Origin: Bacteroidota bacterium
GTDB taxonomy: Bacteria; Bacteroidota; Bacteroidia; NS11-12g; UBA9320
Length of the DNA: 64,000 nucleotides
Assembly (NCBI GenBank): GCA_018700895.1
Contig: JABIUV010000026.1
Span: 62,001 to 126,000, forward strand
Direction of reading: 5' to 3'
Shown here: positions 23,507-59,600 of the stretch, in pieces
How the letters are laid out: each line of letters begins with the position of its first letter
Position numbering within the stretch: the first letter of the stretch is position 1
The notes under the pieces: generated by a model
The model's database searches: none
Seen by the model: the letters and a program-made list of their open reading frames with translations, nothing else
What the model was told of the DNA's origin: nothing
Program-made: the position numbers and the translations under genes

Positions 23507-23537
23507 ATACATATTGTTTGTTTATGTAAGCAAATAA

Positions 23538-23612: not shown

Positions 23613-23647
23613 CATTTATTAAAAAGAAAGAATAATTAATTTTAATC

Positions 23648-24835: not shown

Positions 24836-24852
24836 TAATATATAAGGCACAA

Positions 24853-31741: not shown

Positions 31742-31763
31742 TTAAAATTTTAAATTAGAAAAA

Positions 31764-39165: not shown

Positions 39166-39187
39166 TGGTTTCAAAGCTACGCATAAT

Positions 39188-39206: not shown

Positions 39207-39292
39207 TTGGCCAAACATGACAGCGTAATTCTACAGCTTGTGTAGGAAACTTAAAGTGAAAAGTACCATAAGTGGGTTTTTAGATGTAAATG

Positions 39293-39314
39293 CGTGAACA
39301 TTCACGTATTTTTG
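39293..39314 (+). promoter_or_regulatory. Palindrome abutting the -7 box of the NUDIX regulator gene
   Basis: CGTGAACATTCACG (39293-39306) is a 6+6 inverted repeat with a 2-base centre. It directly touches TATTTTTG (39307-39314), a TAnnTTTG box; no good -33 is seen. A bound protein would cover the polymerase site, so autoregulation is likely. Confidence 0.55.
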
Positions 39315-39340
39315 AGGTTACAAAGCTTCAACTGCAATTA

Positions 39341-40137: not shown

Positions 40138-40827
40138 ATGATAGATATCGCAGGTAAAAACGCATTCATCACAGGTTCAAGTAGGGGAGTAGGTCAGCAG
40201 ATAGCACTAGGATTGGCTCAACACGGCTGCAACATTATTCTACACGGTCGTACTGCGGAGAACTGTCAACAGTCTTGCCATTTGCTCGAACGATATGGTG
40301 TAAAGGTATATATCGTGCACGGAGATTTAGGGGAAGAGGTCCACGTACATCACGTCATAACTCAGGTAAAAGATTTGGGAATACCCGTAGACATATTGTA
40401 CAATAATGCTGCTATCATGTCTACGTATGAATCCGATATATGGGAACACTCTTGGGAAGCGTGGATGAAGAGTATGAAAACTAATGTATTTGCGATGTAC
40501 ACCCTTTGTGCTGCCTTTGTACCCCAAATGGATGAACAAGGCTTTGGTAGAGTAGTAAATTTGATATCGGGCATTCATCAAACACCAGAATTAGCTCCTT
40601 ATGGTGCATCTAAATGGGCAGCGATCAAACTCACAGAGGACTTAGCATCCAAATATGCTGATACCAATGTTAGGATAAATTCACTTGATCCGGGATGGTT
40701 ACGCACCGATATGGGAAGCCAAGAAGCTCCAAATCCTGTGGAAGCGGTATTGCCGGGGGCATTACAACCCGCACTATTAGCCAGTGACGGGCCTACAGGT
40801 AAGGCGTTTGAGGCGTTGGGTGCTTAA
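40138..40827 (+). CDS. Short-chain dehydrogenase/reductase
   Basis: 229 residues. Rossmann motif TGSSRGVG at 13-20, NNAA near 88, catalytic Ser in LISG, and YGASK with the Tyr/Lys pair. The HGR after the second strand suggests NADP(H). It follows the NUDIX regulator by 56 bases on the same strand and may be co-regulated. Its stop shares bases with the stop of the convergent GH17 gene (TTAA). The substrate is unknown; an aldose or keto-sugar is possible given the neighbours. Confidence 0.82.
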   Translation: MIDIAGKNAFITGSSRGVGQQIALGLAQHGCNIILHGRTAENCQQSCHLLERYGVKVYIVHGDLGEEVHVHHVITQVKDLGIPVDILYNNAAIMSTYESDIWEHSWEAWMKSMKTNVFAMYTLCAAFVPQMDEQGFGRVVNLISGIHQTPELAPYGASKWAAIKLTEDLASKYADTNVRINSLDPGWLRTDMGSQEAPNPVEAVLPGALQPALLASDGPTGKAFEALGA

Positions 40828-41708
40828 AATTTCGGTTTTTCATTTTTGTCCCATAATCCCCAATAGGCACCTACATCACCTTCATCTCCTGTTTTCCAAG
40901 ATTCATCAAAGGATGAGAAGTAGAACATTTCTATATCCTCACTCCTCGACCATTGTTGCGCATTGGTAAAGTACTTAAGGTAGTTATTCATAGATGCTTC
41001 TGCTCCTTCAAAAGCACCACCTTCACTCGGCCACCCGGTTTCGGTTATGATTACCCGTTTGCCATTTGCAGCACGTAGAGCCTGCTGATACATCTCCTTC
41101 ATATACAGGAATGAGTAGTCTATATGACAACCTTCCCAAAAAGGGTAACAGTTAGCCAAAATCACCTCACACGCATCGGCAAGAGCTGGACGTTCTGTGA
41201 ATTCATAGTACGCGTCTACATAGCCTACGGGCGTACCTGGTATTGCTAGTTTTACTTTGTCAATATATCCTATCAGTTGCTCTTCGGTAAGTTCTTTGCG
41301 ATAAAGAACCTCGTTACCTACTGCGGCTATATCTACATATCCTTGTTTCGCCAAGTTGATAAGCCCCTCAATTTCGCGTGTATTGGTTTCGGTATCGTCG
41401 TTAAGCCATGCACCCACTAGGGTGTTAATGCCATATTCTTTGGCCAAAGGTGGAATAAGCTCATTACCTTCTGTACATGAAAAAGTACGAATCCACCGAG
41501 TATGTGGTTTCAGAATTTCTAATCGTCTACGAATTTGTTTCTCGGTAATTTTGGCACCGGGCCTTTGTCCTTCTTCAAAAAGACTAAAACAAATGCCGTG
41601 CATTCCAGCTTGGAGTAGTTCTTTGGCGAGAATCTTATTGTCTCCAGATGAGTTGTGAAGCCCTTTGGCCGCTACCAACGACATCAATTTTTCTTGACGT
41701 TTAGACAT
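40824..41708 (-). CDS. Cytosolic GH17-family beta-1,3-glucan enzyme
   Basis: 294 residues with the GH17 TIM barrel: acid/base Glu133 in AAVGNEVLY and nucleophile Glu223 in ITETGWPSEGG, the textbook GH17 signature. Unlike the other GH17 of this locus, it has no signal peptide or lipobox (MSKRQEKLMSLVAAKG), so it should work in the cytosol, either cutting beta-1,3-gluco-oligosaccharides or transglycosylating them. It is the last gene of the PUL and shares one base with the transporter gene upstream. A cytosolic endo-enzyme next to a cytosolic phosphorylase (47789) suggests it prepares or remodels the phosphorylase's substrates. Confidence 0.82.
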   Translation of the reverse strand: MSKRQEKLMSLVAAKGLHNSSGDNKILAKELLQAGMHGICFSLFEEGQRPGAKITEKQIRRRLEILKPHTRWIRTFSCTEGNELIPPLAKEYGINTLVGAWLNDDTETNTREIEGLINLAKQGYVDIAAVGNEVLYRKELTEEQLIGYIDKVKLAIPGTPVGYVDAYYEFTERPALADACEVILANCYPFWEGCHIDYSFLYMKEMYQQALRAANGKRVIITETGWPSEGGAFEGAEASMNNYLKYFTNAQQWSRSEDIEMFYFSSFDESWKTGDEGDVGAYWGLWDKNEKPKF

Positions 41709-43129
41709 TATTTTTCTGCTTTTCTTGAAATCTTTAATTGTTCGGAGACTTCCCGTGACCGCTCCTCGGTCAGGTCATAGTCTTTCATTATCCAAATGGC
41801 ACCTATTACCCCTGCAATTGGTAGAGCCGTGTAGAAAATACGCATTCCCGTGACAGCAGATTCTGTGACAGCTTCAGCATCAAATCCTACTAACCAAAGT
41901 ATAGACCCACTTAATAATGCGGCTATTCCAAAACCTAATTTAACCATCCACCAATAAACTGCCCCTAGTACCCCTTCTCGTCGTTTACCTGTGTTTAATT
42001 CATCAAGGTCACAAATGTCCGCGGTCATTGACATCATAATTGTGAACAGACTTCCGATACCGAAAGAATGAAAAGGCAAGGCGTATATAAATAGGTGGGG
42101 TTTGCCAGGTACAAAAAGAAACCAAAATAGTATGTAGCCTATTATGGAGATAGACTGTGCTATGATGAATGCTTTTTTCTTTCCCAATGCTTTAGCCATC
42201 CAGTTTATAATTGGGATCACTAAAAAGCTAGTGAAAATTGCTCCGACGGAACCATGTATAGCAGGCCAGCTCCCTGCACTAGCAGGATCGCTGTTAAACA
42301 TAAAATGTACAATTATTAAAAACGTAAAGGAAGCGATGACATTAAATGAATTGAAAATCAAAAATGTCGCAAATGCTATTTTTTTAAACTGTTTTATTTT
42401 GAATGCATCTAGAGCTGATGTAAATATATTTACGATGCTTTTACGAACATATGTTGGTGTAATAGGTAAGAAATCCGTCCTTCCTAAGGTTGATTTGCTT
42501 TTAATGAAAATTGCAGGAATCATAGCGAATAGTGAACAGGGAATTGCTACCCAAACAGAAAGTTCTCTAACTCCAGCACCCGCTCCGTCCGGAAACCAGT
42601 TAGGATTATATAGAATTACCCAAAACCATGGTGCAATAACCCAAGCAAATTGCCCGATAAACTGAGATACAGCCATGATTTGGGTTCGCTCGTGAAAGTC
42701 GTCGCTTATCTCGTAACCCATCGCCACAAAAGGTACGCTGAATATTGTAAGTCCTAAATAAAACACTAGAGACCAGATCATAAAGTACCAAAAGTTATAA
42801 GTTAATCCATCACCTTTATATAGTTGCCACATAAATACGAACGCAATTCCCATAATTATTGAACCTAGGAACACATAATGTCTTCTTCGTCCCCATTTGG
42901 ATCTTGTGTTGTCAGATATGAAACCCATTATCGGGTCAGTGATGGCATCAAAAATTCTTGGAGCAAATTGTATAACACCCCAAATAAAAGCTGCAAACCC
43001 TAGGTCTTGAACCAAAACAATAATGAAAACGCCTACTGAAGCTGGAAACATCTGATTGGCCAGCATCCCAAACCCAAAGGCTATTTTCTGACCTAAGGGT
43101 ACTTTCTTTGATTCTAAATATTTACTCAT
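41708..43129 (-). CDS. GPH-family (MelB-like) sugar:cation symporter
   Basis: 473 residues, about 12 membrane helices. The N-terminal part has the glycoside-pentoside-hexuronide signature: FGFGMLANQMF, then FDAITDPIMGFISDNTRSKWGRRRHY, with the Asp residues that bind the coupling cation. It would carry gluco-oligosaccharides released in the periplasm across the inner membrane, feeding the two signal-less enzymes of the locus. It lies 10 bases after the GH30 gene and is coupled to the cytosolic GH17 gene. Substrate is inferred from context. Confidence 0.85.
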   Translation of the reverse strand: MSKYLESKKVPLGQKIAFGFGMLANQMFPASVGVFIIVLVQDLGFAAFIWGVIQFAPRIFDAITDPIMGFISDNTRSKWGRRRHYVFLGSIIMGIAFVFMWQLYKGDGLTYNFWYFMIWSLVFYLGLTIFSVPFVAMGYEISDDFHERTQIMAVSQFIGQFAWVIAPWFWVILYNPNWFPDGAGAGVRELSVWVAIPCSLFAMIPAIFIKSKSTLGRTDFLPITPTYVRKSIVNIFTSALDAFKIKQFKKIAFATFLIFNSFNVIASFTFLIIVHFMFNSDPASAGSWPAIHGSVGAIFTSFLVIPIINWMAKALGKKKAFIIAQSISIIGYILFWFLFVPGKPHLFIYALPFHSFGIGSLFTIMMSMTADICDLDELNTGKRREGVLGAVYWWMVKLGFGIAALLSGSILWLVGFDAEAVTESAVTGMRIFYTALPIAGVIGAIWIMKDYDLTEERSREVSEQLKISRKAEK

Positions 43130-43139: not shown

Positions 43140-44633
43140 TTAGTTGTGAAGAACTACTGTTTGAATAGCTTGAGCTTCTATAGATATTTCTGTGTTAAAG
43201 TGTCCTAAGGTAATGGAAAAGTTTTTAGCCGTCATTCCTTCATTGAAAACCACTACGGCAATGTTGCCATCTGGATTTTGAGCAGCGGTAACTTGTAAGT
43301 CAGCATCGCTTTGTTCCAGTCCTATGCGTACTGCTCCGGGGCGTATGAATTTACTGAAATGTGCCATCGTATAATATAACGGTGTGTAGTATACCTCGTC
43401 GGTTTCTACATCTACGATTACAGGAGCAAGGCACCAGTTTTTGAACCAATTGGGTCCTCCTTGCTTGTCCAATACCATATTCCAGTCTACCCAACCGTCT
43501 ACACAGTTATTAAGGCAGCCTATGATATCGCGTGCATAGCGGTTTACGGGAGCATACTTCGGGTGGTGGTATTTTTGTTCGGGAGTAGCCCAATCCCAAC
43601 CCCAGTCAGTCGCCTCTTTACTCCAGTACCATTTGTCATCTTGCCATTTGGGGATTTCAGAATCGCCACATGCTTCGGTTTGTATGAGGTATTTGTCTGG
43701 AGCTGCTTCGTGTGCTTTTTGCAATGATTCTGGAAAATAATCGTACGTGCTGGCATACCAATGTACTGCGGTTCCGTCATAATAGTTAGATGTGGCCTCA
43801 TTGGCATACATTACATCTATCCACTCTGCTAGTTCATCACCGCGATTTTGGTCGTAACCCAGTATTTTTATGTCGTGACCGTCTTCTTCTAGCTTGGGTC
43901 CAAGATGATGTTGTACGAAGTCGGTCATTTCTTCTGCATTGAAATGCATGCTTTCCCAGTTGTTGCTGTTGCCGAGGGGCTCATTTTCTACCGTAAAGCC
44001 CCAAATGTCGATACCTTCATTTTTGTAAGCTGTGCGATATTTAGAGAAAAATAATGCCCACGTGTCATAATACTCAGGGAGTAACTTGCCGCCTACATAG
44101 TTGTTATTGTCTTTCATCCACGGTGGTGCAGTCCATGGAGAGCTTATAATTTTAAATCCATCTGTAGATACTTCCATGGCTTGTTTTATCATTGGGATGA
44201 TATCATCCATATCCTCTTGGATAGTAAAATTTTCTAAGAGCGTATCGCCTGCCACAGGAGCATAGGAATACTGACCCAATGAAAAATCGCACGAGTTCAT
44301 ATGGGTACGGGTGAGTGAATAATTCGCTCCACTCTTTCCAAAGTAAGCTTCTATCACTTCTGCTCGTTTGGCAGGGCTGAGCTTAGAAACCAAGTGTGCC
44401 GATGCCTCGGTAAACGAACCTCCAAATCCGGTGATGGTCTGGTATTTTTTGTCTGGGTAGAGCTGAATATTGCTAGTGCTATCACTTTTTGCAAACTCGG
44501 TTATTACAGATAGTTGAGAGCCGTTAGCTGATGTTTGGTATACGGTTACTTTTTTTTCTGATTCAGAATTACAAGCTACTATCACAATGCTGGCAAAAAG
44601 TATAAATGTTTTTAAGATGTTTTGAATGTGCAT
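43140..44633 (-). CDS. GH30-family glucanase lipoprotein
   Basis: 497 residues. The lipoprotein signal ends at Cys21 (SIVIVAC), followed by NSESE, a moderately acidic stretch that could mark surface export. The GH30 barrel shows TGFGGSFTEASA, SPWTAPPWMKD, acid/base Glu218 in TVENEPLG and nucleophile Glu320 in IQTEACGD, with the C-terminal beta domain. GH30 members in laminarin loci are beta-1,6-glucanases or exo-beta-1,6-glucosidases that remove side chains. A glucosylceramidase-like role is the general alternative but does not fit the locus. Four bases separate it from the upstream GH17 gene. Confidence 0.85.
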   Translation of the reverse strand: MHIQNILKTFILFASIVIVACNSESEKKVTVYQTSANGSQLSVITEFAKSDSTSNIQLYPDKKYQTITGFGGSFTEASAHLVSKLSPAKRAEVIEAYFGKSGANYSLTRTHMNSCDFSLGQYSYAPVAGDTLLENFTIQEDMDDIIPMIKQAMEVSTDGFKIISSPWTAPPWMKDNNNYVGGKLLPEYYDTWALFFSKYRTAYKNEGIDIWGFTVENEPLGNSNNWESMHFNAEEMTDFVQHHLGPKLEEDGHDIKILGYDQNRGDELAEWIDVMYANEATSNYYDGTAVHWYASTYDYFPESLQKAHEAAPDKYLIQTEACGDSEIPKWQDDKWYWSKEATDWGWDWATPEQKYHHPKYAPVNRYARDIIGCLNNCVDGWVDWNMVLDKQGGPNWFKNWCLAPVIVDVETDEVYYTPLYYTMAHFSKFIRPGAVRIGLEQSDADLQVTAAQNPDGNIAVVVFNEGMTAKNFSITLGHFNTEISIEAQAIQTVVLHN

Positions 44634-44637: not shown

Positions 44638-45948
44638 CTACTTTAGTTTTTTAAGAGGTGGGACTTTAACGTAATTCATCAAGGCTGATTTATCGCCACT
44701 AAAACTTTTGGTAATGGCGTTTCCATTGCGGGAAAGTCCCTCAAAAACATCTTGGTCTACCAAGTCCCAAACGGCGTATTTAGCCTCCCCGTCTATATTG
44801 AATATCCCAAAGTGATTTTCTGAGCCGCCAGGGTTTGCGGCATCCTTCCATTTTTCATTAAATGCTTCAAAGTAAAAACACGCAATTCCCTCCTCGTTGG
44901 TCCACTCTCGCATGTGATGATAGTACAAGCCTTCTTTGTATTCGTCACACGCCTTAGAACCCTCATCGCCATAGTGGCCTCTAGAGTAGCTTGCCCATCC
45001 CGTTTCACCTATGTGTATGCTCTTGGTGCTGTCTATCCCTTGTATATATTTGGCTGATGATGCATATTGATCCATAGCATATTGTTTGGCTCGTAGCATA
45101 GCGGCCTTTATTTTCTCTTCCTTACCTAAGTCCTGCTCACTCGGGTCTGAACCCCAAAAAACTGGATGATAATGCGTGTCGTGCATAGGGTAGGTGTGCA
45201 GCGATACGAAGTCTACCGCTTTTATCAGATCTTCCAGGTCTTGACAATGATATAATGAATCGCCACCGCCCCACGAGGCAAAATTGTCTGAACTTGTTAT
45301 CCAAAGGTTTTGGTTCAGCGTTCCTTCTTTTTTTAGATTTTGAAGATGATTTACCCATCGGAGAATGACCTTAGGTTGCACATAGTAACTAGCGGCCCAT
45401 TTTACCATAGCTTCATTGCCTACGGCTATGATTTTAACAATATCTGGGTATTGTGTTGCTAGGTCTACAGCACGTTGTATCTCCGCACTATTGGCGGCTT
45501 CATTTTCAGCATCATGATTTGGTTCTTTATTCGTCCAGGCATTTTTGCAGTCTATCCAAGCACCGAGCATAACATACATTTCGAATGATGGGTCTTCTTC
45601 TCTTAGCTCGTGTATAGCTTGCAGCAAGTTATCTGCTTGCTTGTAATGCGTATTATATGTTCGGAGGATGCCAATACCCATCGCCGATAGTATTTTCATA
45701 TCCTCTTTAAGCTCCGGTATGGTAGGTTGAGTGTCGCGGGTAATCTCGCGATATCCGCCATAGCTTATGGCTTGATACTTGGGGTTTCCTAAAATCTCGG
45801 CAGCGGTAATGGATTGATTCATCGGTTGGTCAGTTTTTTGTTGATTGGTACTGCAGCCCGTGAGTATAAATATGCACAAGGCTATAAAAAATCGCTTAAT
45901 AGTGCGATATTCTGTTGAAGCAAAAAGGGGTAATGTATTTCGATTCAT
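44638..45948 (-). CDS. GH17-family beta-1,3-glucanase lipoprotein
   Basis: 436 residues. The signal ends at Cys32 (FILTGC) and is followed by STNQQKTD with no early acids, so it probably stays on the periplasmic side. Acid/base Glu179 in IAVGNEAMV and nucleophile Glu315 in HIGETGWAS identify GH17. It is about 140 residues longer than the cytosolic GH17 of this locus, with loops around 140-150 and 335-350 that could shape the substrate cleft. It would split imported laminarin oligosaccharides. It lies two bases from the GH3 gene. Confidence 0.85.
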   Translation of the reverse strand: MNRNTLPLFASTEYRTIKRFFIALCIFILTGCSTNQQKTDQPMNQSITAAEILGNPKYQAISYGGYREITRDTQPTIPELKEDMKILSAMGIGILRTYNTHYKQADNLLQAIHELREEDPSFEMYVMLGAWIDCKNAWTNKEPNHDAENEAANSAEIQRAVDLATQYPDIVKIIAVGNEAMVKWAASYYVQPKVILRWVNHLQNLKKEGTLNQNLWITSSDNFASWGGGDSLYHCQDLEDLIKAVDFVSLHTYPMHDTHYHPVFWGSDPSEQDLGKEEKIKAAMLRAKQYAMDQYASSAKYIQGIDSTKSIHIGETGWASYSRGHYGDEGSKACDEYKEGLYYHHMREWTNEEGIACFYFEAFNEKWKDAANPGGSENHFGIFNIDGEAKYAVWDLVDQDVFEGLSRNGNAITKSFSGDKSALMNYVKVPPLKKLK

Positions 45949-45950
45949 GA

Positions 45951-47786
45951 TTATTTGTCTTGAGGCCTGTAGGTTAATCCGTAGCCAAATGGGAATAGGG
46001 GAGTTATACTATTATCCCAATAGTTAGGACCAAATTTATTGTTGTAATCCGTAATGGATTTGGGCCAAGAGTGTGGTAATTTTCCTTTGAAATCATACTC
46101 GCCAAAGAGTACCTGGGCAATACCATCACCCTCAGAACCCGGCAACCATGCTGCGACAAAGGCTTGCGATTGAGCCAGTTGCTTATTTACTACTAAGGGT
46201 CTGCCTGAAACTAATACTGTCACCACCTTCAGGCCTTGCGAGGCATAATGTGAGATGTAATGTTGCTGCGAGTCGGAAAGAGTAAGCTGGTGCTTACCTT
46301 TTCCATCACCTATATCACCAAAAAATTCGGCATAAGGGGTTTCGCCAACCACTATGATCACTGCGTCGGCATCTGGATGAGAACCTTGGCCTAATGAGTC
46401 ATATATCACTGTGCCTTGAGCAACTTGTTTTATTCCGTCTAAAATGGTTGTAGCTCCATTGTAACTTGTTTTAGAGCCTTGCCAATTGATGGTCCACCCG
46501 CCGGACTGATAACCGCTATTATTAGCGTGAGCACCTACCACTACTATTTTGCTTGCCGCTTTGTTGAGTGGTAAGATGTTATCTTCGTTTTTGAGCAGTA
46601 CAAGTGATTCACGCACAGCCTGACGAGCCACTGCTCTATGTTCAGGTATGCCTATTGCCGTAGTTAATGACTTAGCAGGGAATGGATTTTTAAATAAACC
46701 CAGGCGATACTTTTGGCGTAGAATTCGGGTTACCGCGTCATCTATTCTGCTCATTGGTACGCGATTTTCTTCTACAGCTTTTTTGAGGCCATTTTGAAAC
46801 AAACCTAAATCCCCATCTACGGCCATTACCATATCAATGCCTGCATTTATTATAGCCGCTTGGCCAAACCGTGAGTAGCCTTTCCAGTCAGAAATTACGA
46901 TTCCATCAAAACCTAGCTTGTTTTTAAGTGTATCGGTGATGAGTGCCTTATGGGCGTGCATAGGCAGACCGTCAATGGTATTAAACGAAGTCATTACGGC
47001 CCCTGCTCCTTGCTGTACGGCCATTTTATACGGATCTATCAATCGCTTCATCATTTCATGATTTGCTATCGAAGATGAACCCCCTTCTATGCCGTAATCT
47101 GTAGCACCATCGCCAATATAATGTTTGGCAGTGGCCAATACGGTGGTACTATCATTTAAGTGCCGTTGTAATCCATTGATGTACGCTTTAGTCAGGTCGG
47201 TGGTGAGTTGTGCATCCTCAGCGTATGCTTCGTAAAAACGACCCCATTTTTCATTGAGGGGTATTGCGACACACGGGGCAAATACCCAATTGAATCCACA
47301 CGCCTGTGATTCTAATGCGGTGATACGTGCTGCTTCCTCTGCCAATTCTAAATTGGCTGCAGCTCCCATACCAATGTTATGAGGAAATATAGTTGCTCCG
47401 TTATAGGTGTTTTGTCCGTGTACCGCATCCACACCGAAAAGCAATGGAATCCCCAACCGTGTAGACAACGCCTCTTTTTGTAGTTCGGTAAACTTTGCTT
47501 GCCATTCGGCTGCATTTTTTCCTGGTAGTGGTCCTTGGGTATGTATTGCTGAGCCAAGGTTTTTAGCCGCAACATCACCCTTTCCTATATCGTAAAAGTG
47601 CCTCACCTGTGTCATCTGACCTATTTTTTCTTCTAAGGTCATTTGAGCAAGTAGGGTCGCTACCTTATTATTTATTCGCTGTGATTCGAGCTTGCCGAGA
47701 GTGTATTTGTTTTGTTTACACCCCATAATGCTAAAGCAGCCGATGAGCAGCATTGCAATAAGAGGTATACGTAAGCTTTTATTCAC
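45951..47786 (-). CDS. GH3-family beta-glucosidase lipoprotein
   Basis: 611 residues. The lipoprotein signal ends at Cys17 or Cys23 (SIMGC), with KQNK after it and no acidic export signal. The N-terminal barrel contains FGVDAVHG, KHYIGDG and the nucleophile Asp300 in VISDWKG; the alpha/beta sandwich follows (LVLLKNEDNILPL). The fibronectin-III-like C-terminal domain seen in longer GH3 enzymes is absent. It would release glucose from the non-reducing ends of beta-gluco-oligosaccharides in the periplasm. That would compete with phosphorolysis in the cytosol, so its specificity matters. Confidence 0.88.
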   Translation of the reverse strand: MNKSLRIPLIAMLLIGCFSIMGCKQNKYTLGKLESQRINNKVATLLAQMTLEEKIGQMTQVRHFYDIGKGDVAAKNLGSAIHTQGPLPGKNAAEWQAKFTELQKEALSTRLGIPLLFGVDAVHGQNTYNGATIFPHNIGMGAAANLELAEEAARITALESQACGFNWVFAPCVAIPLNEKWGRFYEAYAEDAQLTTDLTKAYINGLQRHLNDSTTVLATAKHYIGDGATDYGIEGGSSSIANHEMMKRLIDPYKMAVQQGAGAVMTSFNTIDGLPMHAHKALITDTLKNKLGFDGIVISDWKGYSRFGQAAIINAGIDMVMAVDGDLGLFQNGLKKAVEENRVPMSRIDDAVTRILRQKYRLGLFKNPFPAKSLTTAIGIPEHRAVARQAVRESLVLLKNEDNILPLNKAASKIVVVGAHANNSGYQSGGWTINWQGSKTSYNGATTILDGIKQVAQGTVIYDSLGQGSHPDADAVIIVVGETPYAEFFGDIGDGKGKHQLTLSDSQQHYISHYASQGLKVVTVLVSGRPLVVNKQLAQSQAFVAAWLPGSEGDGIAQVLFGEYDFKGKLPHSWPKSITDYNNKFGPNYWDNSITPLFPFGYGLTYRPQDK

Positions 47787-47788: not shown

Positions 47789-50700
47789 TTATTTAAGGCT
47801 AGTTTCATCTAAGTATACGGTAATATTCACTACCTCTCCACTTCGTTTGAAAATTTCAGAACTGGTCTGGGCATCTAGATTTAATCCCTCTATTGTAGTT
47901 GAGGTTTTATCCTTATTAGTCACCACCATGCTATTTTCTTTGGCGAGGCGATAGATAATAGGCACTTGACAATAAGTGAAACATAAAGAGCCGAGTTCAG
48001 GCGAAAAATCGTGGTGATTCATATGCACATCTACATAATGAAAATTTCTGCTCTGCACCGTAAATTCATTTTTACGTAGTAAACAAGGGTCGAAATACAA
48101 ACAACCGTCTTTTACAAAAACGCCAAGTTCTCCGAACCTACTTAGTACATCTTCCTTTACCTGCCCTGTCATACCTGGTTGCTGAGCACCTCGGCCAGCA
48201 GGAGTATGCGAGTAAGGGTCGGTAGGAAATGCACCGTATAGTTGTGGTGACTTATGTACACCTACTCCTTCGTTTATCTCGTAGTAGTGCTCTAGTAGTC
48301 GTCCTACTATTTCTTTGCTTTCGCCTTTCTCTACAGCTATTAAGCATATTTCTTGAACGGCTAATTGGAGCTTAGAGACCATATGCCAGTATATAGATCC
48401 TAGTCCCTCATAACCGAAGAATGTTCCAGACCTTCCTGTAAATGCCTTGTGATTAAATACCTTTTCAAACGTGGCTAAAATGTGCTGCTCCTCATCGCTG
48501 TCAAGACTTACATCTAAGTTATGTAAAGCAGAAGCGAGGTCATTGGCATTTTTGAAATTACCATTAAAGTGGAAATTGCCCTTGGTGTCTTTTTCTATGA
48601 TAGAAGTATCATTCTCCTTTTCCATCTTGGTGAGGAGCTTACTCTTTTTTATAGCTTGGGCAGGTACATTATTCTTCTCCAAAAACTTAGGTAAATTTTT
48701 ATTCGGATAGAGAATGTAGCTATACTGATCTTCTCGGAATAAGGCACTCTTTTTCATGCTGTCAAGAAGTCTTAAAGCTTTTTTAGGCTTCAAGTGACCC
48801 GAGCTAAGTACGGCGACTTGTCCTTCCAACATCTCATCTAGATACGCTATAGACACTTCTTTGTCGTTTTCTACCGTCATGAGGTTATAAGCGTGGTATA
48901 GTTTATCCTCACGCTTGTTAGCCTTGATGGTGTGTTCTATAAATTTCAGACTAAGCTTGATAAAACGCTTGAGTCGTTTGTATGAGATGGTTCTTTTTTG
49001 TCCCCAGAAAGCTTGTTTGTAAATATGCTCACGGTAGTCGCTACCTGCTTGACCTAAGTGGTCGAGTATTTCTTTGCGATGCTTGTCGCTTATTTTATCC
49101 TTGAGGACGTGCTGGTAATCTTCGAAGGTCTCTAGTATTTTTTTGTAAAATATGATGAGTTCGTTTGATATTTCTACGCGGTCTTCAGTCGCATTTTCTA
49201 TTTGCTTGTCAAAGAATATAAGAAATCTGCGGAGGTAGTATAAGGTTACCATCGAAACCCCGTTTCCAACCAATGCATTATTGGCATCATTCCACTCTGG
49301 ACGTTGTGTATTCATCCATATGCCACCTTCGGGTATGAAATTAGATAACTTGGCGAGTACTGTTGCTAGTATTTTTTCTACGTAATTTACGGTGTATATC
49401 GCATCATTCTCGTCTATAAGTAATGCCGCGTCAGAACCGAGTTCTTTGCGTCGTGCTCGTATGTCTAGGTCCAACTCTTCGTCAAACTCAATGGTGTCTT
49501 TAGGGTTTTTTACAATCTCCTCGTAGCTCTTTATTTTGTATGGAACGTCGGCATATACGTATGCTTCTTTTTCAAAATTAGTTGCTAATTGTCCGGGGAA
49601 GTACTTCTCATTTAATTCTAACAATTTGAGTAAGTATATAATCTGATGATCGCCCCAGTAGCCTATGTATGACCACGGGTTGTCTGGTTCTATGGTTTCC
49701 CAGTCAAATCCACCTTTGGTGACACGGTACGGGTTGTATCCTTCAAAAGTGGTGGCATTCAGAAACTTATGAATCATGCTCTCGGTGAAAGCAGGGTAGG
49801 AGTGGGCGAGTGCCTCCCAGTTCTGAAATATATCTCTCCAGTTTCCTTCGTAGTCCAAAATTTTGGATCCGTCTACCTCACTGCGTGTATTGATAGAGAA
49901 CTTGTTCCACGGTCTACTTGGGTCTCCGTGTCTTCTACTAAACTTGAGCGGCATGTACTCTTTGCACAATCGCTTGAAGTCTTTGTCGCTGCTCTTACTT
50001 GCTACTTCTTCTAGGTCAAAGGACGTGAAGGTTTCTGGCAAGGCATTTATGGTTTTCTCCAACAGAGTGTAAACACGTGTATTCGCATTTTGGATATAGT
50101 TTTTAAAATCCCATTTTTCTATCTGATAGTTGGCATCAAATACGCCACCACGCATAATATTGAATAATGAGTTAGAAAAATGTCTACTATCTCTGAATAC
50201 ATCAGCAGATAGTTGAATACCATCAGCAGAGGCGTTGAGCTCTATTAGTTTTTGAGAACCAAGCTGAATATTTTGATGTACTTCTTCTGCTAAGTTTTTA
50301 TTGGTTTTGATTTGCTCTATTAGTGCTACGATGGCCGATTGGCTTTTATTTACATCAGCTACGATCGTCCACGTTTCTTCGGCGTTTGGAGCAAGTTTGT
50401 ATATGGCATTAATGAAGTATGCTCCTTTTTCGGCTTTTACGTCGTTTTCGGGCTTCACTTGTAGTCCTTTTCTGAAATCGCCTACCTGCATAGATGATAC
50501 AAGGTGGGTAGCTTTTGGTAATCCTAATGACCACGCTACATTTGCTTTGAGTGCTTCGCTAGGTTCAGCTTTGTCTACGATGATGGCACTCAGTGCGTAT
50601 ATACCCAGTCCTGATGATTCATTGAGCTCATTGCGTTTGTAAGCGTCTACCAAGTTACTTGTTGAGTTTTGCAAATCTGGCCCAACACCCTCGGGCATTA

Positions 50701-51241
50701 GGTTTTGTATTCCGTCTAATACAGAAACATTTATTTCAGCGTCCGAATGATTGGTTAATTGTGATTTTCGTACAAAACCAAACTCATTACTTGAGTTCCA
50801 TTGATATTTAAATGTAAGACCAAGGTCGTGGTTTATTTCTTCAAATATTATTTTATTACCTAGTGCATTCTTATAAAGATTGCGAGTGGTGTTATATAAG
50901 TCTGAGTTACGCTCCGAGAATGGTTCCCATATATGCAACTCGTTGTTTAATGTTACTTGAAAAATAGACTTACTACCTGTTGTTTCTACAGATTCGGTAA
51001 TCTTATCAGATGTGTAGTAAGGAAAAAGACTGTAGTTCGAATTTTTTCGGCCAGCACTTAGAGCACCGTTGCTTGATATGAACATCCAGTGATTAGAGTC
51101 ACTTACAATACTCATAAAAAACGGACGCATCTCGTTATAATTCGAAATCTTGTAGTAGTTCTCGTTCTCTATTTTGAGACGGTTTATATCTACTGTTTCA
51201 GCACTTTTAGCTTCTCCTTTGTGTAATGTCTGTCTTGCCAT
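47789..51241 (-). CDS. GH149-type beta-1,3-glucan phosphorylase
   Basis: 1150 residues without signal peptide or lipobox, so cytosolic. Size and layout (beta-sandwich about 1-310, linker, alpha/alpha barrel about 360-870, long C-terminal part) match GH149, the family of Euglena EgP1 and bacterial relatives, which split beta-1,3-glucan with phosphate into alpha-glucose-1-phosphate. The stretch GGIWMNTQRPEWNDANNAL at about 639-657 resembles the catalytic WND motif of related GH94 enzymes; Asp652 is the likely general acid. GH161 is another beta-1,3-glucan phosphorylase family but is shorter. The flanking GH17, GH3, GH16 and transporter support the substrate. Confidence is moderate because the family was assigned from memory. 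Confidence 0.75.
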   Translation of the reverse strand: MARQTLHKGEAKSAETVDINRLKIENENYYKISNYNEMRPFFMSIVSDSNHWMFISSNGALSAGRKNSNYSLFPYYTSDKITESVETTGSKSIFQVTLNNELHIWEPFSERNSDLYNTTRNLYKNALGNKIIFEEINHDLGLTFKYQWNSSNEFGFVRKSQLTNHSDAEINVSVLDGIQNLMPEGVGPDLQNSTSNLVDAYKRNELNESSGLGIYALSAIIVDKAEPSEALKANVAWSLGLPKATHLVSSMQVGDFRKGLQVKPENDVKAEKGAYFINAIYKLAPNAEETWTIVADVNKSQSAIVALIEQIKTNKNLAEEVHQNIQLGSQKLIELNASADGIQLSADVFRDSRHFSNSLFNIMRGGVFDANYQIEKWDFKNYIQNANTRVYTLLEKTINALPETFTSFDLEEVASKSSDKDFKRLCKEYMPLKFSRRHGDPSRPWNKFSINTRSEVDGSKILDYEGNWRDIFQNWEALAHSYPAFTESMIHKFLNATTFEGYNPYRVTKGGFDWETIEPDNPWSYIGYWGDHQIIYLLKLLELNEKYFPGQLATNFEKEAYVYADVPYKIKSYEEIVKNPKDTIEFDEELDLDIRARRKELGSDAALLIDENDAIYTVNYVEKILATVLAKLSNFIPEGGIWMNTQRPEWNDANNALVGNGVSMVTLYYLRRFLIFFDKQIENATEDRVEISNELIIFYKKILETFEDYQHVLKDKISDKHRKEILDHLGQAGSDYREHIYKQAFWGQKRTISYKRLKRFIKLSLKFIEHTIKANKREDKLYHAYNLMTVENDKEVSIAYLDEMLEGQVAVLSSGHLKPKKALRLLDSMKKSALFREDQYSYILYPNKNLPKFLEKNNVPAQAIKKSKLLTKMEKENDTSIIEKDTKGNFHFNGNFKNANDLASALHNLDVSLDSDEEQHILATFEKVFNHKAFTGRSGTFFGYEGLGSIYWHMVSKLQLAVQEICLIAVEKGESKEIVGRLLEHYYEINEGVGVHKSPQLYGAFPTDPYSHTPAGRGAQQPGMTGQVKEDVLSRFGELGVFVKDGCLYFDPCLLRKNEFTVQSRNFHYVDVHMNHHDFSPELGSLCFTYCQVPIIYRLAKENSMVVTNKDKTSTTIEGLNLDAQTSSEIFKRSGEVVNITVYLDETSLK

Positions 51242-51274: not shown

Positions 51275-52543
51275 TTATAAAGCTTTATTTATGGCTTCGT
51301 CTATGTTTATTTTAGCAAATAAGGAGTCTAATAGTGGGAGCGTTTGATTGGGGGATATGGGATTAATGTTGTGAATTTGACTCAATACATAGTATGCTGC
51401 TCGCGGGTATAGTGGAGAGGTATTGTTGGGGAGTGTTTTGCCCTTGGCACATATCCCAAACCACTCTTCGTTCATATTCTTTTGACCTTTTTTATAATCA
51501 TAAGCATAACCGCCATTACTCCAAGATGCTGTGGAGTCGTGTACGTCTAAGTTATAAGTTTGTCCGGTTTTCCACCAGCCGTCACTAAATTGAAAGGTGA
51601 ATCCACCGATGCAATTCTCTGCTTTACCTAATCCTGCGGCATTTTGGTATAGCTCTTTCCAGTTGCTTAGTAGGTATTGTGCTTGGGAACGTTGGTCTTC
51701 TTTTTGGCTGATTGCATCATAAGCATCTGCCCCAAATTCGGTAAACATTACGGGCTTACCCCATTGTTTTTTTATGTCCGTAAATGCCTTATCAAAAGAA
51801 GATCCGCGGTAGATATTAATGCCGAGGATATCTACGTGAGTGCATTCTTTGGCAATAATATCGAGATATTGGATGTCGCCATTGCATATAGCTACTTGCT
51901 TGTCAGGGTCTATTTGCTTCAGTACTTGAGCAGCTTCATTAAAAACTTGGTATAAGGCAAGTATTTGTTTTTCGGCATTTGCCTTTTGTAGAGGGATGTC
52001 CTCTGTTTCGGCTCCTTCCCAGAAGAGACCGTAGTTATTCTCGTTGCCCAAGAGGTACATCAATAGTCCTCTGGTATTTTTATAGTTGTGAGCAACCGCT
52101 TTAATTTCTGTTAATATGGTTGCTTTAGTAAGCGAATCGGCATAATTAGTCTTAGCAACCCATTGGTCATTGATACTCAGGCCATATCTACCCATAGAAT
52201 GATTAATAACCGTATGAATACCATAGGTGTCATATACGTAGGTAATCCATTGGGGCGGCATAGAGACATAAGTTCTTAGGGTATTTACTCCCATGTCTTT
52301 CAATAGGGTCATGTCCGTCGCCAAGCCTGCGTGTATAACGCTGTCTGGCTGCTCCCAGAAAGAATAGGTATAGTTGGTTCCAATAGGAAAGTAATCCCAA
52401 TTCATACCATTAATGAAAATAGGTTTCCCGTTTACCTCTAGGGTATGACCCGTCTCTGCCTCAACCGACGATACACTGGATTTCTTGGCACAAGAAGCCA
52501 AAAAAAACGAAATGATTATATATATGATCGGGTTGGGTCTCAT
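51275..52543 (-). CDS. Unclassified clan GH-A glycosidase lipoprotein
   Basis: 422 residues. The lipoprotein signal ends at Cys18 (FFLASC), followed by AKKSSV with no acids, so it likely faces the periplasm. The rest is a single TIM barrel: IFINGMNWDYFP, LLKDMGVNTLRTYV, acid/base Glu168 in LLGNENNYG and nucleophile Glu269 in MFTEFGADA. The layout recalls the barrel of GH2 and the GH72 glucanosyltransferases, but the sandwich domains of GH2 are missing, and I cannot place it in a family. In this locus it should act on beta-glucan as a hydrolase or transglycosylase. It could alternatively be GH158 or a GH5 subfamily. Confidence 0.65.
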   Translation of the reverse strand: MRPNPIIYIIISFFLASCAKKSSVSSVEAETGHTLEVNGKPIFINGMNWDYFPIGTNYTYSFWEQPDSVIHAGLATDMTLLKDMGVNTLRTYVSMPPQWITYVYDTYGIHTVINHSMGRYGLSINDQWVAKTNYADSLTKATILTEIKAVAHNYKNTRGLLMYLLGNENNYGLFWEGAETEDIPLQKANAEKQILALYQVFNEAAQVLKQIDPDKQVAICNGDIQYLDIIAKECTHVDILGINIYRGSSFDKAFTDIKKQWGKPVMFTEFGADAYDAISQKEDQRSQAQYLLSNWKELYQNAAGLGKAENCIGGFTFQFSDGWWKTGQTYNLDVHDSTASWSNGGYAYDYKKGQKNMNEEWFGICAKGKTLPNNTSPLYPRAAYYVLSQIHNINPISPNQTLPLLDSLFAKINIDEAINKAL

Positions 52544-52606: not shown

Positions 52607-53728
52607 TTATTGAAATACACGGATGTAGTCTACCCACATTTTTTGTGGAAAGTCTGTAGTAGAGTCTGGCGACCCAGGCCATCGGCCACCTACGGCCACA
52701 TTAAATATGAAAAAGAATTCCTGATGAAATTCACTCATATTGGGGTTGGTAGTAGTGATTACCATATATTGTTTATCATCACGTAGGATGCGTATTTTCT
52801 CATCGTCCCATATTAGGGAGAAAACATGAAATTCTTCTGAGAATTTGGTAGAGATAGAATTACTCAAACCGTACGAAGCATATGAACCTGCATTGTCCCA
52901 ATGCACAGTTCCGTGTACAGTCTTATCCGATTTACCTTCGGCCGTTCCGCCTACAAGTTCCATAATATCTATTTCACCGCAGTTAGGCCAGCTAACTGTC
53001 GAAATATCATTGCCCAGCATCCAAAGTGCAGGCCAAATACCTTGCCCTTCTGGCAAAGCGGCACGTATATCTACACGGCAGTATTTAAAAGATTTTTTAT
53101 TTTTTGTCGTCAGTCTTGACGAGGTGTATTGTCTGTTGCCAAAAAATTGTTTTTTAGCTTCGATAGACAAATAGCCATCGGCTACTATAGTGTTTTCTTT
53201 GAGGTAGTACTGTTGTTCGTTGTTTCCCCAGCCGTTGCTGCCTGTACCTAATTCGTAGTTCCATACAGATTCGTTCAATGCTTCTCCATCAAACTCGTCA
53301 TTCCAAACGAGGGTCATCCCGTCATAAGTCATAGGAGATGAGTAGCCATTAAGCGGCCTACCGTCCTCGGTCTTAGTCTCTTCTATGTATACCCTAAAAG
53401 TATCTGTTCGTTCTATGTAATTAGTTGCAAGAGCGTGTGCTTTTACGTTGATTTCATACAATCCTGATTTGGTATACGTATGTGTGGCGGTGCCATACGG
53501 AGTTTCTGTACTTTCTGTGTTGTCGCCATCCAAAAAAGTGATGGTAAAAAAGTTGACTGAATTTGCTTTAGCAGTGACGTTAACAATACTTGGGTCATTA
53601 GCTGAATACTCTATTTGTACCGTCAAACTATCAGGTAATCCTACTTGAGGTTTTTCAGGTTCATCATCGCAACCCGTAATTCCAAGAATAAAGATAAGTA
53701 ATAGTAATGATATATTTTTAAGTCTCAT
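52607..53728 (-). CDS. GH16-family laminarinase lipoprotein with PKD-like domain
   Basis: 373 residues from the ATG at 53728; the track starts 15 codons earlier and spoils the lipoprotein signal. Cys20 (LGITGC) is followed by DDE, which fits the Bacteroidota surface-export signal, so the enzyme should sit on the cell surface. A PKD-like domain (about 30-118) is followed by the GH16 domain (about 135-373) with the catalytic GEIDIMELVG (Glu252, Asp254, Glu257). The short loop type is that of laminarinases (GH16_3). It would make the first cuts in extracellular beta-1,3-glucan. Confidence 0.88.
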   Translation of the reverse strand: MRLKNISLLLLIFILGITGCDDEPEKPQVGLPDSLTVQIEYSANDPSIVNVTAKANSVNFFTITFLDGDNTESTETPYGTATHTYTKSGLYEINVKAHALATNYIERTDTFRVYIEETKTEDGRPLNGYSSPMTYDGMTLVWNDEFDGEALNESVWNYELGTGSNGWGNNEQQYYLKENTIVADGYLSIEAKKQFFGNRQYTSSRLTTKNKKSFKYCRVDIRAALPEGQGIWPALWMLGNDISTVSWPNCGEIDIMELVGGTAEGKSDKTVHGTVHWDNAGSYASYGLSNSISTKFSEEFHVFSLIWDDEKIRILRDDKQYMVITTTNPNMSEFHQEFFFIFNVAVGGRWPGSPDSTTDFPQKMWVDYIRVFQ

Positions 53729-53751
53729 GATATGTATTGTTAAGCATAGAA

Positions 53752-53781
53752 AAAGGAGTGCGAATTGTATCACACTCCTTT
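53752..53781 (-). terminator. Attenuator-like hairpin between binding-protein and enzyme genes
   Basis: A perfect 9-bp stem (AAAGGAGTG/CACTCCTTT) with a 12-base loop, followed on the minus strand by further T. It lies 20 bases after the lipoprotein gene's stop and 24 bases before the GH16 start. It would leave susC-susD-binding protein expressed above the enzymes. Confidence 0.65.
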
Positions 53782-53801: not shown

Positions 53802-55154
53802 TTAATTTTGTTTGATGTCATCTAAGTAGAAAGTGCCAGCATTAGCTACATCCCATCCAGGGAATAATACTACTCTAGCAAATTTGCCAGCCGCAGCATC
53901 GCTGAAATCAATACTAACTTCTACCCATGTATTAGCCGTAGGTACGTTAACATCTTTCTCTACAAACTCACCTGTATCATCAATGTTTTCTAATTTCATA
54001 CGCATAAGTCCGGCAGCTGGAGCCCATACTTTCACCGTAAGATTTGGTGATCCATTTGTGAAATCCAAAGGATCTTTGAGGTCAACGAATAATCCTGCCC
54101 AAGTTTGGTCTCCGTGTACAGTCTCTAAAACATTAGCACTGGTGTTGATTCCAGACATATCTGGATTAGCAACAATGCCGTATGTACTTCCACCGAAAGT
54201 AGTCCACTCCATAGCGTCTCCTTCAAAATCAAACGGTAAAGCAAGTCCACTGGTGTTTCCACCTCCGCCGCCACCGCCGCCTCCGCCGTTATCTACGGGG
54301 AAGTCTTCGGGAACTAGTCTGATGTACCATCTTAATGTAGCATCTACAGCATCTGTATAGCTTATAGTTAATTCATTCTCATTGATAGTTTCAACGCGAT
54401 ATTCTCTTACGCCTGAGAAGAAACCAATAAACGCTGAACCAGAGATACTAATCATGGTGTCTTCGCCTTCTGTCAACGTCCACGTTTCATCTAGTTGGTT
54501 CTCAAATGGAGCTGAAGCGTCATCTGAATTGTCATAAGCACCTGGGAAGTTTGCCATTTGATCGTTGTTAAGGAATACTAATCCGTTAGTTATATGGTCA
54601 AATTTAAATCCGCTTAGCTTGAATGTATATCTATCACTGTACAAACCAGTGTTAGCTTTATTCAATGGATCTGCAGACCACCATTCTGGCCAAGTACCTG
54701 CCTCAGGGCCTACGCCCATGTGTGCAGCTCTAGTTGAGTCTATAACCCAAGTTTTGCTTCCGCTACCCGCTATGCCACCCGTAAGCAGAGTGTAAAGTGG
54801 GTTGTCTAATAAGGTGATATCGTCTTCAGCAATTACGATGTCTTGTGAGCTACTTGCACTTCCACCAGAGTTGAAAACTGTAAGTGTAACTGTGTAAGTA
54901 CCTTTGTTTGGGTAGCTAGACTGTGCAGTCATACCTTCTCCCAATAGAGCATTTCCGAAATCCCATTTATAGGTGAATCCAGAGTTTGTTGCAGTGAAGT
55001 CGATAGTGTTTGCGTTTTCAGCAGTTGCAGCATAAGTAAATGCAGCATCTGCAGATGTTGGTGCTTCACCTAGTGATGGAGCTTCATCATCTTTACAGCT
55101 CGATATTCCTAGAATAAGAGCCAGTGATAAAAATAAAAATGTTGTTTTTTTCAT
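53802..55154 (-). CDS. Surface glycan-binding lipoprotein with PKD domain
   Basis: 450 residues. Cys20 is followed by KDDE, very close to the published surface-export signal of Capnocytophaga lipoproteins (QKDDE), so it should face outward. A PKD domain (about 35-110) precedes a middle beta-rich part (about 115-285), a run of ten glycines (54258-54287) and a C-terminal module (about 305-450) shared with the T9SS protein at 38383. There is no glycosidase signature. Placed after susD, it is the SusE/F-position binding protein of the PUL, expected to hold beta-glucan at the surface. Confidence 0.8.
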   Translation of the reverse strand: MKKTTFLFLSLALILGISSCKDDEAPSLGEAPTSADAAFTYAATAENANTIDFTATNSGFTYKWDFGNALLGEGMTAQSSYPNKGTYTVTLTVFNSGGSASSSQDIVIAEDDITLLDNPLYTLLTGGIAGSGSKTWVIDSTRAAHMGVGPEAGTWPEWWSADPLNKANTGLYSDRYTFKLSGFKFDHITNGLVFLNNDQMANFPGAYDNSDDASAPFENQLDETWTLTEGEDTMISISGSAFIGFFSGVREYRVETINENELTISYTDAVDATLRWYIRLVPEDFPVDNGGGGGGGGGGNTSGLALPFDFEGDAMEWTTFGGSTYGIVANPDMSGINTSANVLETVHGDQTWAGLFVDLKDPLDFTNGSPNLTVKVWAPAAGLMRMKLENIDDTGEFVEKDVNVPTANTWVEVSIDFSDAAAGKFARVVLFPGWDVANAGTFYLDDIKQN

Positions 55155-55175: not shown

Positions 55176-56657
55176 TTAATAATTAGCGTTTTGTGACCAC
55201 GACCCACCTGTTAAGTCTATCTCAACTTGTGGTATCGGGAATAATTCGTGTTTGCCCGTTTGGAAACCATCTATCTCCGTAGCAGCTTGTCCTGTACGCA
55301 CTAGGTCAAAGAAACGATGCCCTTCGCACGCTAGTTCGTGCAATCGCTCATCCCATATGTCTTGGGTAAGTTGTGATCCTCCACTTGTGATTTCTGGCAT
55401 ATTTACTCTGTCTCTTACACGCTTTAAGTAAGCGAGTGCTTTTGCGTCGTTAGGCGTAGATGCACGATTATGTGCTTCTGCTGCCATCAAAAGTACATCA
55501 GCAAAACGGATAACTTTGTAATTTACAGGGCTAGTTAAGTCATTATCTGGTAAACCTATTTCGCCTTGACGTTTGATATACTTGTTATTGTAGTAACCAG
55601 AGTGACCACCTCCACCTTTAGCATAAGTGATTTCGCTAGAGTTAGGCTGTGCGGCAATGAACGCGTCTATATCTAATACACTGGCGTCTCTTCTTATATC
55701 GCCAGCGGCATAGGAGTTGTAAAGCTTTTCAGTGGGCATATTGTAACTATTGCCGTCACCGTATACTGGACCGTTATATTGTCTTATCCCATGAAAACCG
55801 GGAGCAGCATTTCCTTCTAAGCATATTAGACATCCATAACTACCACCTTCAGCTCCGCTATATTCTACGTCGAATATGGTTTCTGCGTGTCCTTCATTTA
55901 TGACAGAGAATAAATCTTCGTAATTAGGAATAAGGTCATATGGTCCTTCGTCTATCACGCGGTCTAGGATTACTGCTGCTTCATCAAACTTGTTTTGGTA
56001 CAAAAGTGCTTTGCCGTGCAGTGATAGTGCAACTCCTTTTGTCAATCTGCCTTTTACAGGATTGGTCCAATCTAATACTGCGGCTGCGGCAGTTAGGTCG
56101 CTTTCTATCTGAGCGTATACTTCTGCTTGTGGCGTGCGGCTTATTTCAGTAACCTCATCGGCACCCAATCGTTGGTCTATTACCAAAGGTACATCACCAA
56201 AGTATTTTACCAACTCAAAGTAGTAATATGCTCTCAGCAATTGTGCTTGTGCTATAATTTGGTCTTTACCTTCAAAATCAAGCTTGTTTTTGTTTTCCAT
56301 AATGTAGTTTACACGAGTAACGCCGGCATAATTCCATCTGAATACGTTTCGCAATTCATTGTTTACCGCATCGTGGGTCATGTTATCTATCTCGTGTAAT
56401 CCTTCGGTATCCGAAACACTCTCGCCACCTGCTATGGAATTATCGCTTGCTATTTCACCGATCCATACTGTGATAAATGAAGATTGTAGTAAGTCATACG
56501 CTCCAGTGAGTGCACGCTCATAGTCTACAGGTGTTTCAAAATAGTTTTCAGCATCCTGAGTATATAGCGGATTGATATCTAAGAACTTCTCACAACTTGT
56601 AAAAAGTACGGTTGCCAAACAAAAGATGGCGAATATTCTAATTGTTATCTTTTTCAT
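55176..56657 (-). CDS. susD: SusD-family nutrient-binding lipoprotein
   Basis: 493 residues, with signal peptide and lipobox ending at SCEKFLDINP, the normal SusD N-terminus. TPR-like helices (LLRAYYYFELVKYFGDVPLV) and the C-terminal RVRDRVNMPEI and LACEGHRFFDLVRTG motifs are diagnostic. SusD forms the lid of the SusC transporter and binds the glycan. It lies 8 bases after susC. Confidence 0.95.
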   Translation of the reverse strand: MKKITIRIFAIFCLATVLFTSCEKFLDINPLYTQDAENYFETPVDYERALTGAYDLLQSSFITVWIGEIASDNSIAGGESVSDTEGLHEIDNMTHDAVNNELRNVFRWNYAGVTRVNYIMENKNKLDFEGKDQIIAQAQLLRAYYYFELVKYFGDVPLVIDQRLGADEVTEISRTPQAEVYAQIESDLTAAAAVLDWTNPVKGRLTKGVALSLHGKALLYQNKFDEAAVILDRVIDEGPYDLIPNYEDLFSVINEGHAETIFDVEYSGAEGGSYGCLICLEGNAAPGFHGIRQYNGPVYGDGNSYNMPTEKLYNSYAAGDIRRDASVLDIDAFIAAQPNSSEITYAKGGGGHSGYYNNKYIKRQGEIGLPDNDLTSPVNYKVIRFADVLLMAAEAHNRASTPNDAKALAYLKRVRDRVNMPEITSGGSQLTQDIWDERLHELACEGHRFFDLVRTGQAATEIDGFQTGKHELFPIPQVEIDLTGGSWSQNANY

Positions 56658-56665: not shown

Positions 56666-59600
56666 TTAAAATTTGATAGAAAGTCCAGTCATTATAGTTC
56701 TCGCTTGTGGGTAGAAACCGTAGTCTATACCTGCAGATAAAGCTCCGCCAAATGAACCAAGATCTGGATCATATCCTTGATAATTGGTGATAGTTAATAA
56801 ATTATTTGCTGCGACGTATATACGCGTGCTTGATATTTTCAATCTGCTCAACCTGTTCTTAGGTAAGGTGTATCCTAGCTGTATGTTTCTTAATCGCAAG
56901 AAAGAACCATCTTCTACATAAAAGTCTGAGAAGGTAGTATTACGGTTGAGGTCAGTAGTCAGTCTTGGTGTTTCGTTGGTAGGGTTACTGCCATTCCATC
57001 TGTCGATATTGTAGCCTAATTGGTTAGCATATGGTTGCTGACGCTCGTAGTTACGTATGATTTCTTGGCCGATAGCACTGTATAGATTCGCTGAGAAATC
57101 AAATCCTTTGTAGTCCATATTTAGATTATAACCAAAGGTGAATGTTGGTATCGCGTTACCTAATTCTTTTTGGTCTGAATCATCGCTAAAACTGATTACG
57201 CCGTCACCATTTTGGTCTACAAAGCGTAAATCACCAGGCTTAGCACCATCTTGAACTACTGGTGCATTATCTATCTCTTCTTGACTTTGGAATATTCCGT
57301 CAGTCTCATATCCTATGAAGTAACCTATGGCGTACCCTTCTTGGAAACGAGTTGCCACGTTGCCACCCACACCAAAGTTAGCACCCGGTATGAAATCTAC
57401 TCCATCTGGTACATCAGTTACCTTGTTGCAAATAAAGGTAGTATTCAAGCTTGTGCTCCAATTGAAGTCTTTACGTGTAGGAGCGACATATCCAAGCTCT
57501 ATTTCCACACCTTTATTGCTTACGTCACCTGCATTAATAATAGGTGCGAAACTTCCTGCTCCTGCTGTTCCTAATACACCGGAAACTTCAGGTTGGAAAA
57601 GTAGGTCTCTTGTGTTTTTGATAAAGTAGTTTACCGTTACGTCTACACCTCGCTTTAGTTTAATATCTGTTCCTATATTAAATTGACGTGTAGTTTCCCA
57701 TTTCAAATCGGGATTACCCGCTCTACCTATGGCTGCACCTTTGGTGATTATATCGTCAAAAACATAATCTCCTTCACCGGTAAGCAATCCGCGGTATGCA
57801 AAGTTGGGTATCTGGTCATTACCGCTAATACCATAGCTTACTCTCATTTTCACATAAGAAGCTCTATCCCAGTTGAAAAAATCCTCTTCTGACAGCATCC
57901 AGCTACCAGATACGGTAGGGAATAAACCATAGCGGCTATTCGGTCCAAATTTAGATGAACCATCTCTACGTAGTATCACAGAGCCATTATACTTGGTTGA
58001 GTAACGGTATTGCGTTCTTATGAAGGTAGATAATAGTCGCTCTTGGAACTGAAATGAGTTGGTATTATTCAAAAAACCACCTGGTGCTAAATTGGCCGAA
58101 ATATCGGCATAATCTATACTGTTATTAGGGATGTTGAATGCTGTTCCACCCAAGCCTTGTCCGTTTCTACTGAAGATAGAAATACCAGCCGTAGTTTTTA
58201 AGTTGTGCACTTCACCAAAAGCATATTCGTGATTAACAAAACTCTCAAAGTTGATATCGCTATAAGTGGCTCTTGCCTCGTATACACTAGCTCCTCTATC
58301 TATGGTGGTCCCGGGAGCAATCTCTGCTTGTGTAGGGTCTAAGTCTGCGTTAAGTGCAGTGTTTTGTGCTTTACCTGGACCGTACCATACGAGTGGAGAG
58401 AATACTTTTTGGTCTACCAGTGCAAAGTTGTAATTAAATCTGTTCGTAAATGTAAGGTTATCAAGGATGTCAAAAGCTATTTCTTCTTTACCTACAAACT
58501 TGTCTACGAAGCTGGTATTGTAGATGTTTTGCATTTGTGCTATTGGGTTGATGATATCACTTACCTCTTCCAGATAAGAGTATTGTCCGCTAGCTTCTTG
58601 TACGGGGTCGGTAGGGAATGCATTGATAGTGTTATACAATACTGACCCTATGCCATTCTCAGGCAAGACATCACGCTCTTCGTTGGTATATAAGAATACA
58701 CTACTAAGTCGCATACGTTTGCTCATCTCCGTGTTCAGATTCACACGAGCGTTCATTCTTGTAAAGTTGGCTTTGTCTCCACCTACTATACCATCTTGGC
58801 TGAAATAACTGCCCCCAATAGAGTAGGTAGTTTTGTCGCTACCGCCACTTATAGTGACATTATAACTCTGCATATTTGCATCCTGAAAAACAGCATCTTG
58901 CCAATCCGTGCCTTCTCCCAAAGCTGTGTTGGCAAAAGGAATGGCGTCATTACCATTGGCAAACATTTCATTCTTTAGAACGGCATACTCCGAGGCATTG
59001 AGAAGGTCTAATCGCTTAGCGGTAGATTGCACACCATAATAGGTGCTCAATTCTATTTTTGGTTTTGTATTGGCTCTACCTTGCTTAGTAGTGATAAGGA
59101 TCACTCCATTGGCTGCTCTTACACCGTATATACCAGCGGTAGCATCTTTCAGCACGTTCACCGTTTCTATGTCATTTGGATTCAAGGCATTCAGACCTTC
59201 TGAGTCATATACAACCCCGTCTACAAGTATAAGTGGGTCATTGTCTCCAAAGGTTGATAAACCACGAATACGAATACTTGATCCTCCCCCTGGCGAACCA
59301 GAGTTGGTATTAATCGTTACACCGGCTACCTTGCCTTGTAGAGCTTGGTCTACACGCGGAATGTTTAATTTTTCGAGGTCTTTACCTGCCACATTACTAC
59401 TAGCTCCGGTAAATTCTTTTTTGGTAGATGTACCATAACCTACTACCATAACCTCACTGATACCTACTGAGTTTTCACTAAGTTTGATCTTTACGGTTGT
59501 TTTGCCTAATACAGCGAGTTCGCGTTTCTTGTAACCCGAGTATGTTACTACGAGTACCGTAGTTTTGGGGTTTTCTACAGGGAGAGAAAACGCTCCATTT

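Follow-up and report, generated by a model that had tools for sequence, protein, structure and literature searches.

Why would a laminarin utilization locus with many lipoprotein enzymes also encode a very large enzyme that has no export signal? The locus lies in a window of 64,000 nucleotides from a Bacteroidota bacterium (contig JABIUV010000026.1), by which we mean the whole stretch of DNA that was analyzed. A first-pass annotation had read the protein as a phosphorylase of family GH149. Our analysis leads to the same family, and we conclude that the protein is almost certainly a cytosolic, inverting GH149 β-1,3-glucan phosphorylase (clan GH-Q) that serves the laminarin utilization locus.

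Family assignment

The gene is a single open reading frame (ORF) that begins with ATG and is not interrupted by stop codons. Its product matched NF058639, the NCBIfam equivalog model for GH149 β-1,3-glucan phosphorylases, with 1773.9 bits over positions 3 to 1133 of the 1,134 model positions; the cut-off of this model is 1150 bits, which was exceeded by more than 600 bits. Because of this match to a model of such length, a chance ORF was rejected. Among proteins of solved structure the sole strong relative was Pro_7066, a crystallized bacterial GH149 (PDB 6HQ6/6HQ8), which matched residues 15 to 1149 with 1676.9 bits and is 64% identical to the window protein over 1,142 columns. Dom 1 and Dom 2, the additions to the catalytic domain that are absent from GH94 (residues 370 to 428 and 852 to 938 of Pro_7066 [PMC6771811]), were both aligned with short gaps only. 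No Pfam model, including that for the GH94 domain, matched the protein, and therefore a reading based on Pfam alone would overlook the GH149 family.

GH149, GH94, and GH161 all belong to clan GH-Q and have the WND/RD/H residues in common (PMC6484121), and weak sequence matches were obtained from GH161 structures. The protein could on these grounds be a GH94 laminaribiose phosphorylase or a GH161 enzyme instead of a GH149, but the scores leave that assignment practically no chance. The GH161 structure 9QQK matched with 57.1 bits in three fragments, versus 1,677 bits for GH149; the GH94 laminaribiose phosphorylase gave no sequence match to the window protein; and the GH94 domain (PF06165) was not found anywhere in the genome, whereas it was found in the Thermotoga maritima control. 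Given these values and the NF058639 score, membership in either family was rejected. The two families, represented by GH161 PapP (PDB 9QQK and 9GY9) and the GH94 laminaribiose phosphorylase (PDB 6GGY), share with the window protein the WND and RD motifs and probably the clan GH-Q fold and the β-1,3 linkage, but they differ in chain-length limits (PMC6484121).

The first-pass annotation had proposed a comparison of an AlphaFold model with GH149 and GH94 structures. The model, built from 30 sequences, had a mean pLDDT of 74.3 and a pTM of 0.65, with values below 50 in the WND loop and in other active-site segments. The fold comparison placed 6HQ8 and 6HQ6 at the top (E of 0, probability of 1.0), followed by GH161 and then by the GH94 laminaribiose phosphorylase, with fold-alignment identities of 16% for GH161 and 11 to 12% for GH94. 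The comparison agrees with the family ranking from the sequence, but the placement of the domains in the model is unreliable, as the TM of 0.61 and the rmsd of 18.5 against 6HQ8/6HQ6 indicate; both values reflect the moderate confidence of the model. For the same reason the structural match contributes little on top of the sequence.

Conservation of the active site and the surface site

Seven active-site residues of Pro_7066 served as the reference (PMC6771811). R470, D471, W651, N652, D653, E951, and H959 of that enzyme correspond to R469, D470, W650, N651, D652, E945, and H953 of the window protein, and all seven were invariant in an alignment of the window protein with 40 relatives that are 39 to 74% identical to it (41/41 sequences). 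The clan GH-Q signature, consisting of WND, RD, and the phosphate-site His (H953), is therefore present. The RPEWNDANNAL motif begins at residue 647. The first-pass annotation was right in the GH149 assignment, in its parallel with the GH94 catalytic motif, and in the numbering of Asp652. The surface oligosaccharide site of Pro_7066 is also largely kept, with seven of eight residues the same; the exception is E982, which is K976 in the window protein and is variable among the relatives too.

The earlier statement that little work has been done on bacterial members of the family holds only in part. Kinetics and crystal structures have been published for one bacterial GH149, Pro_7066 (PMC5827456, PMC6771811), and Bacteroidetes laminarin loci with GH149 genes have been described since 2018 (PMC5827456, PMC6246565). 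EgP1, the Euglena gracilis GH149, is 45% identical to Pro_7066 and prefers glucose and laminaribiose as acceptors; it is of the same family and activity class as the window protein but is eukaryotic and has a predicted targeting peptide (PMC5827456).

Gene content of the locus

All the genes of the locus are on the minus strand, in the order SusC, SusD, PKD lipoprotein, GH16, GH2-type, GH149, GH3, GH17A, GH30, MFS, and GH17B (Table 1). The SusC/SusD pair adjoins β-1,3-glucan hydrolases, which is the arrangement by which a laminarin PUL of the Bacteroidota is recognized. The MFS symporter is likely the oligosaccharide importer, and the PKD lipoprotein is probably a surface glycan-binding protein.

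Table 1 Features of the laminarin locus and its surroundings in the window
Feature	Coordinates	Strand	Evidence
SusC TonB-dependent transporter	56666..59761	-	TIGR04056, 809.8 bits
SusD	55176..56657	-	PF07980, PF14322
PKD-domain lipoprotein	53802..55154	-	PF00801/PF18911; lipobox
GH16 lipoprotein, laminarinase type	52607..53773	-	PF00722; lipobox
GH2-type TIM-barrel lipoprotein	51275..52543	-	PF02836; lipobox
GH149 β-1,3-glucan phosphorylase without export signal, 1150 aa, WND 650-652	47789..51241	-	NF058639, Pro_7066
GH3 lipoprotein, β-glucosidase type	45951..47786	-	PF00933 + PF01915; lipobox
GH17A lipoprotein, endo-laminarinase type	44638..45948	-	PDB 6FCG, E 2.3e-180; lipobox
GH30 lipoprotein, β-1,6 debranching type	43140..44633	-	PF02055 + PF17189; lipobox
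MFS/GPH sugar:cation symporter, inner membrane	41708..43129	-	PF13347; GPH/melibiose permease likeness
GH17B type, without export signal	40824..41708	-	PF00332; PDB 4WTP β-1,3-glucanosyltransferase, E 6.8e-35
NUDIX/NrtR-AraR-type regulator	39290..40081	+	PF21906 + PF19368
Small protein	38383..39174	-	Type IX secretion sorting tail
rpoB and rpoC	27935..36083	+	
Five tRNA genes	23125..24926		

The regulator gene lies near the 3' end of the locus, and no homologue of it was found in any of 80 named GH149 loci (flanks of up to 5 kb), so that a link between the regulator and the locus is tentative at best. A module of about 150 residues is common to the small protein with the sorting tail and the PKD lipoprotein, where it lies in the C-terminal half; the two copies are 30% identical (E of 2e-7). 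No Pfam family covers this module, which could be a glycan-binding module. The rpoB and rpoC genes and the tRNA genes are situated past the 3' end of the locus.

Two published laminarin loci, one from Formosa Hel1_33_131 (PMC6246565) and one from Muricauda lutaonensis (PMC13188888), match the window locus in their gene types. In Muricauda, as in the window, the GH30 and MFS genes are between GH17A and GH17B, and the GH149 and GH16 genes are upstream; however, the Muricauda GH30 has no detectable signal, whereas the window GH30 has a lipobox, and some Muricauda clusters have a GH3 in place of GH149, whereas the window locus has both (PMC13188888). The Formosa MFS and GH17B are parts of one fusion (PMC6246565), but in the window the two are separate genes, with the start of GH17B and the stop of MFS overlapping by one base at position 41708. 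Such a fusion was also present in 12 of the 40 relatives, together with a second, separate GH17B downstream.

Occurrence of GH149 and conservation of its locus

The loci of the 40 relatives contained many of the same genes, mostly in the same order, and the order of the hydrolase and MFS genes was conserved. Partner genes were counted in the 56 of the 80 named GH149 loci that had full 5-kb flanks. An MFS gene was present in 53, GH17A in 52, GH16 in 47, GH30 in 45, and a match to GH17B in 29.

In the order, 25 of 108 genomes have a GH149, as do 51 of 297 genomes sampled from the phylum, and at least 592 stretches in a species-genome collection encode a relative. Within the genus the occurrence is patchy, as several relatives that are ≥90% complete have no GH149. 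The genome of the window has one copy; no second GH149 was found elsewhere in it. There was no relative among viral contigs, and viral carriage was therefore rejected.

Export signals and cellular location

The N terminus of the GH149 protein has neither a hydrophobic stretch nor a lipobox. Its maximum Kyte-Doolittle value over 12 residues is 0.51, versus 2.57 to 3.22 in the exported proteins of the locus, which agrees with the original claim that the protein has no export signal. The accompanying claim that nearly all the other enzymes are lipoproteins holds for GH30, GH17A, GH3, the GH2-like protein, and GH16, but not for GH17B, which has no signal. We rejected the idea that the missing signal is a peculiarity of the window protein. 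An export-type N terminus was found in none of the 41 GH149 sequences (the window protein plus the 40 relatives) and, judged from these N termini, the missing signal is a trait of the GH149 family.

Given an N terminus without signal-like features, the most likely location of the enzyme is the cytosol, and phosphorolysis would most likely take place there, after import by the MFS symporter. One paper groups GH149 with the enzymes that make oligosaccharides before transport (PMC13188888), which would have the phosphorylase act on laminarin outside the cytosol, before uptake, and reach its place by an unrecognized export route. With 0 of 41 sequences carrying an export-type N terminus, we consider this highly improbable. 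Moreover, glucose-1-phosphate made outside the cell would need its own importer.

Proposed role in laminarin utilization

In the scheme that we propose, the GH16, GH17A, GH30, GH3, and GH2-type lipoproteins, together with SusC/SusD, would convert laminarin to short oligosaccharides outside the cell and in the periplasm. Short β-1,3-oligosaccharides would then reach the cytosol via the MFS symporter; we infer both this import and the direction of the flux inside the cell. By analogy with Pro_7066, the window protein would have phosphorylase activity specific for the β-1,3 linkage. If the chemistry of Pro_7066 and GH94 applies, inorganic phosphate would attack the anomeric carbon of the glucose at the nonreducing end, with Asp652 as the general acid, and the products would be α-glucose-1-phosphate, by inversion, and a chain one glucose shorter. 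Glucose-1-phosphate could enter glycolysis via a phosphohexomutase, with one ATP saved per bond. Two genes of the phosphoglucomutase/phosphomannomutase family are present elsewhere in the genome.

Phosphorolysis can run in both directions, and in vitro Pro_7066 builds chains of up to DP 11 (PMC5827456). The authors who described MlGH17B proposed a role in energy storage (PMC11005184). The enzyme might accordingly run mainly in reverse in the cell, using glucose-1-phosphate to build β-1,3-glucan chains, either as a reserve or to be remodeled together with the signal-less GH17B. This is improbable, because the gene is inside a SusC/D locus for uptake and degradation, a context that recurs in the relatives. 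In addition, intracellular phosphate normally exceeds glucose-1-phosphate.

Degradative phosphorolysis in the cytosol, our preferred reading, could be extended to include GH17B. The GH149 phosphorylase and the GH17B-type transglycosylase would form a cytosolic pair for β-1,3-glucan like MalP/MalQ for maltodextrins, in which the transferase would rebuild chains or free laminaribiose and the phosphorylase would shorten chains. We regard such a pairing as speculative and rather unlikely. Clusters in which a phosphorylase accompanies an MFS transporter and a cytoplasmic GH17 are already in print: the founding paper of the family, from 2018, noted the latter two in related gammaproteobacterial clusters, along with Bacteroidetes loci of the same kind as that in the window (PMC5827456).

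Significance

Both the family of the window protein and its type of locus had been described before, and the protein is unremarkable among the members of that family. Thus, although the first-pass annotation was right, the find itself is ordinary, being a typical enzyme in a common laminarin cluster. The kind of protein, its structure, and the type of locus were all known, as were the relevance of laminarin turnover to the ocean carbon cycle and the lower energy cost of phosphorolysis compared with hydrolysis. What is added is one well-conserved GH149 sequence and one more standard marine laminarin locus. The sole useful addition is the absence of an export signal throughout the GH149 sequences that we aligned, which supports cytosolic action and speaks against placing GH149 outside the cell.
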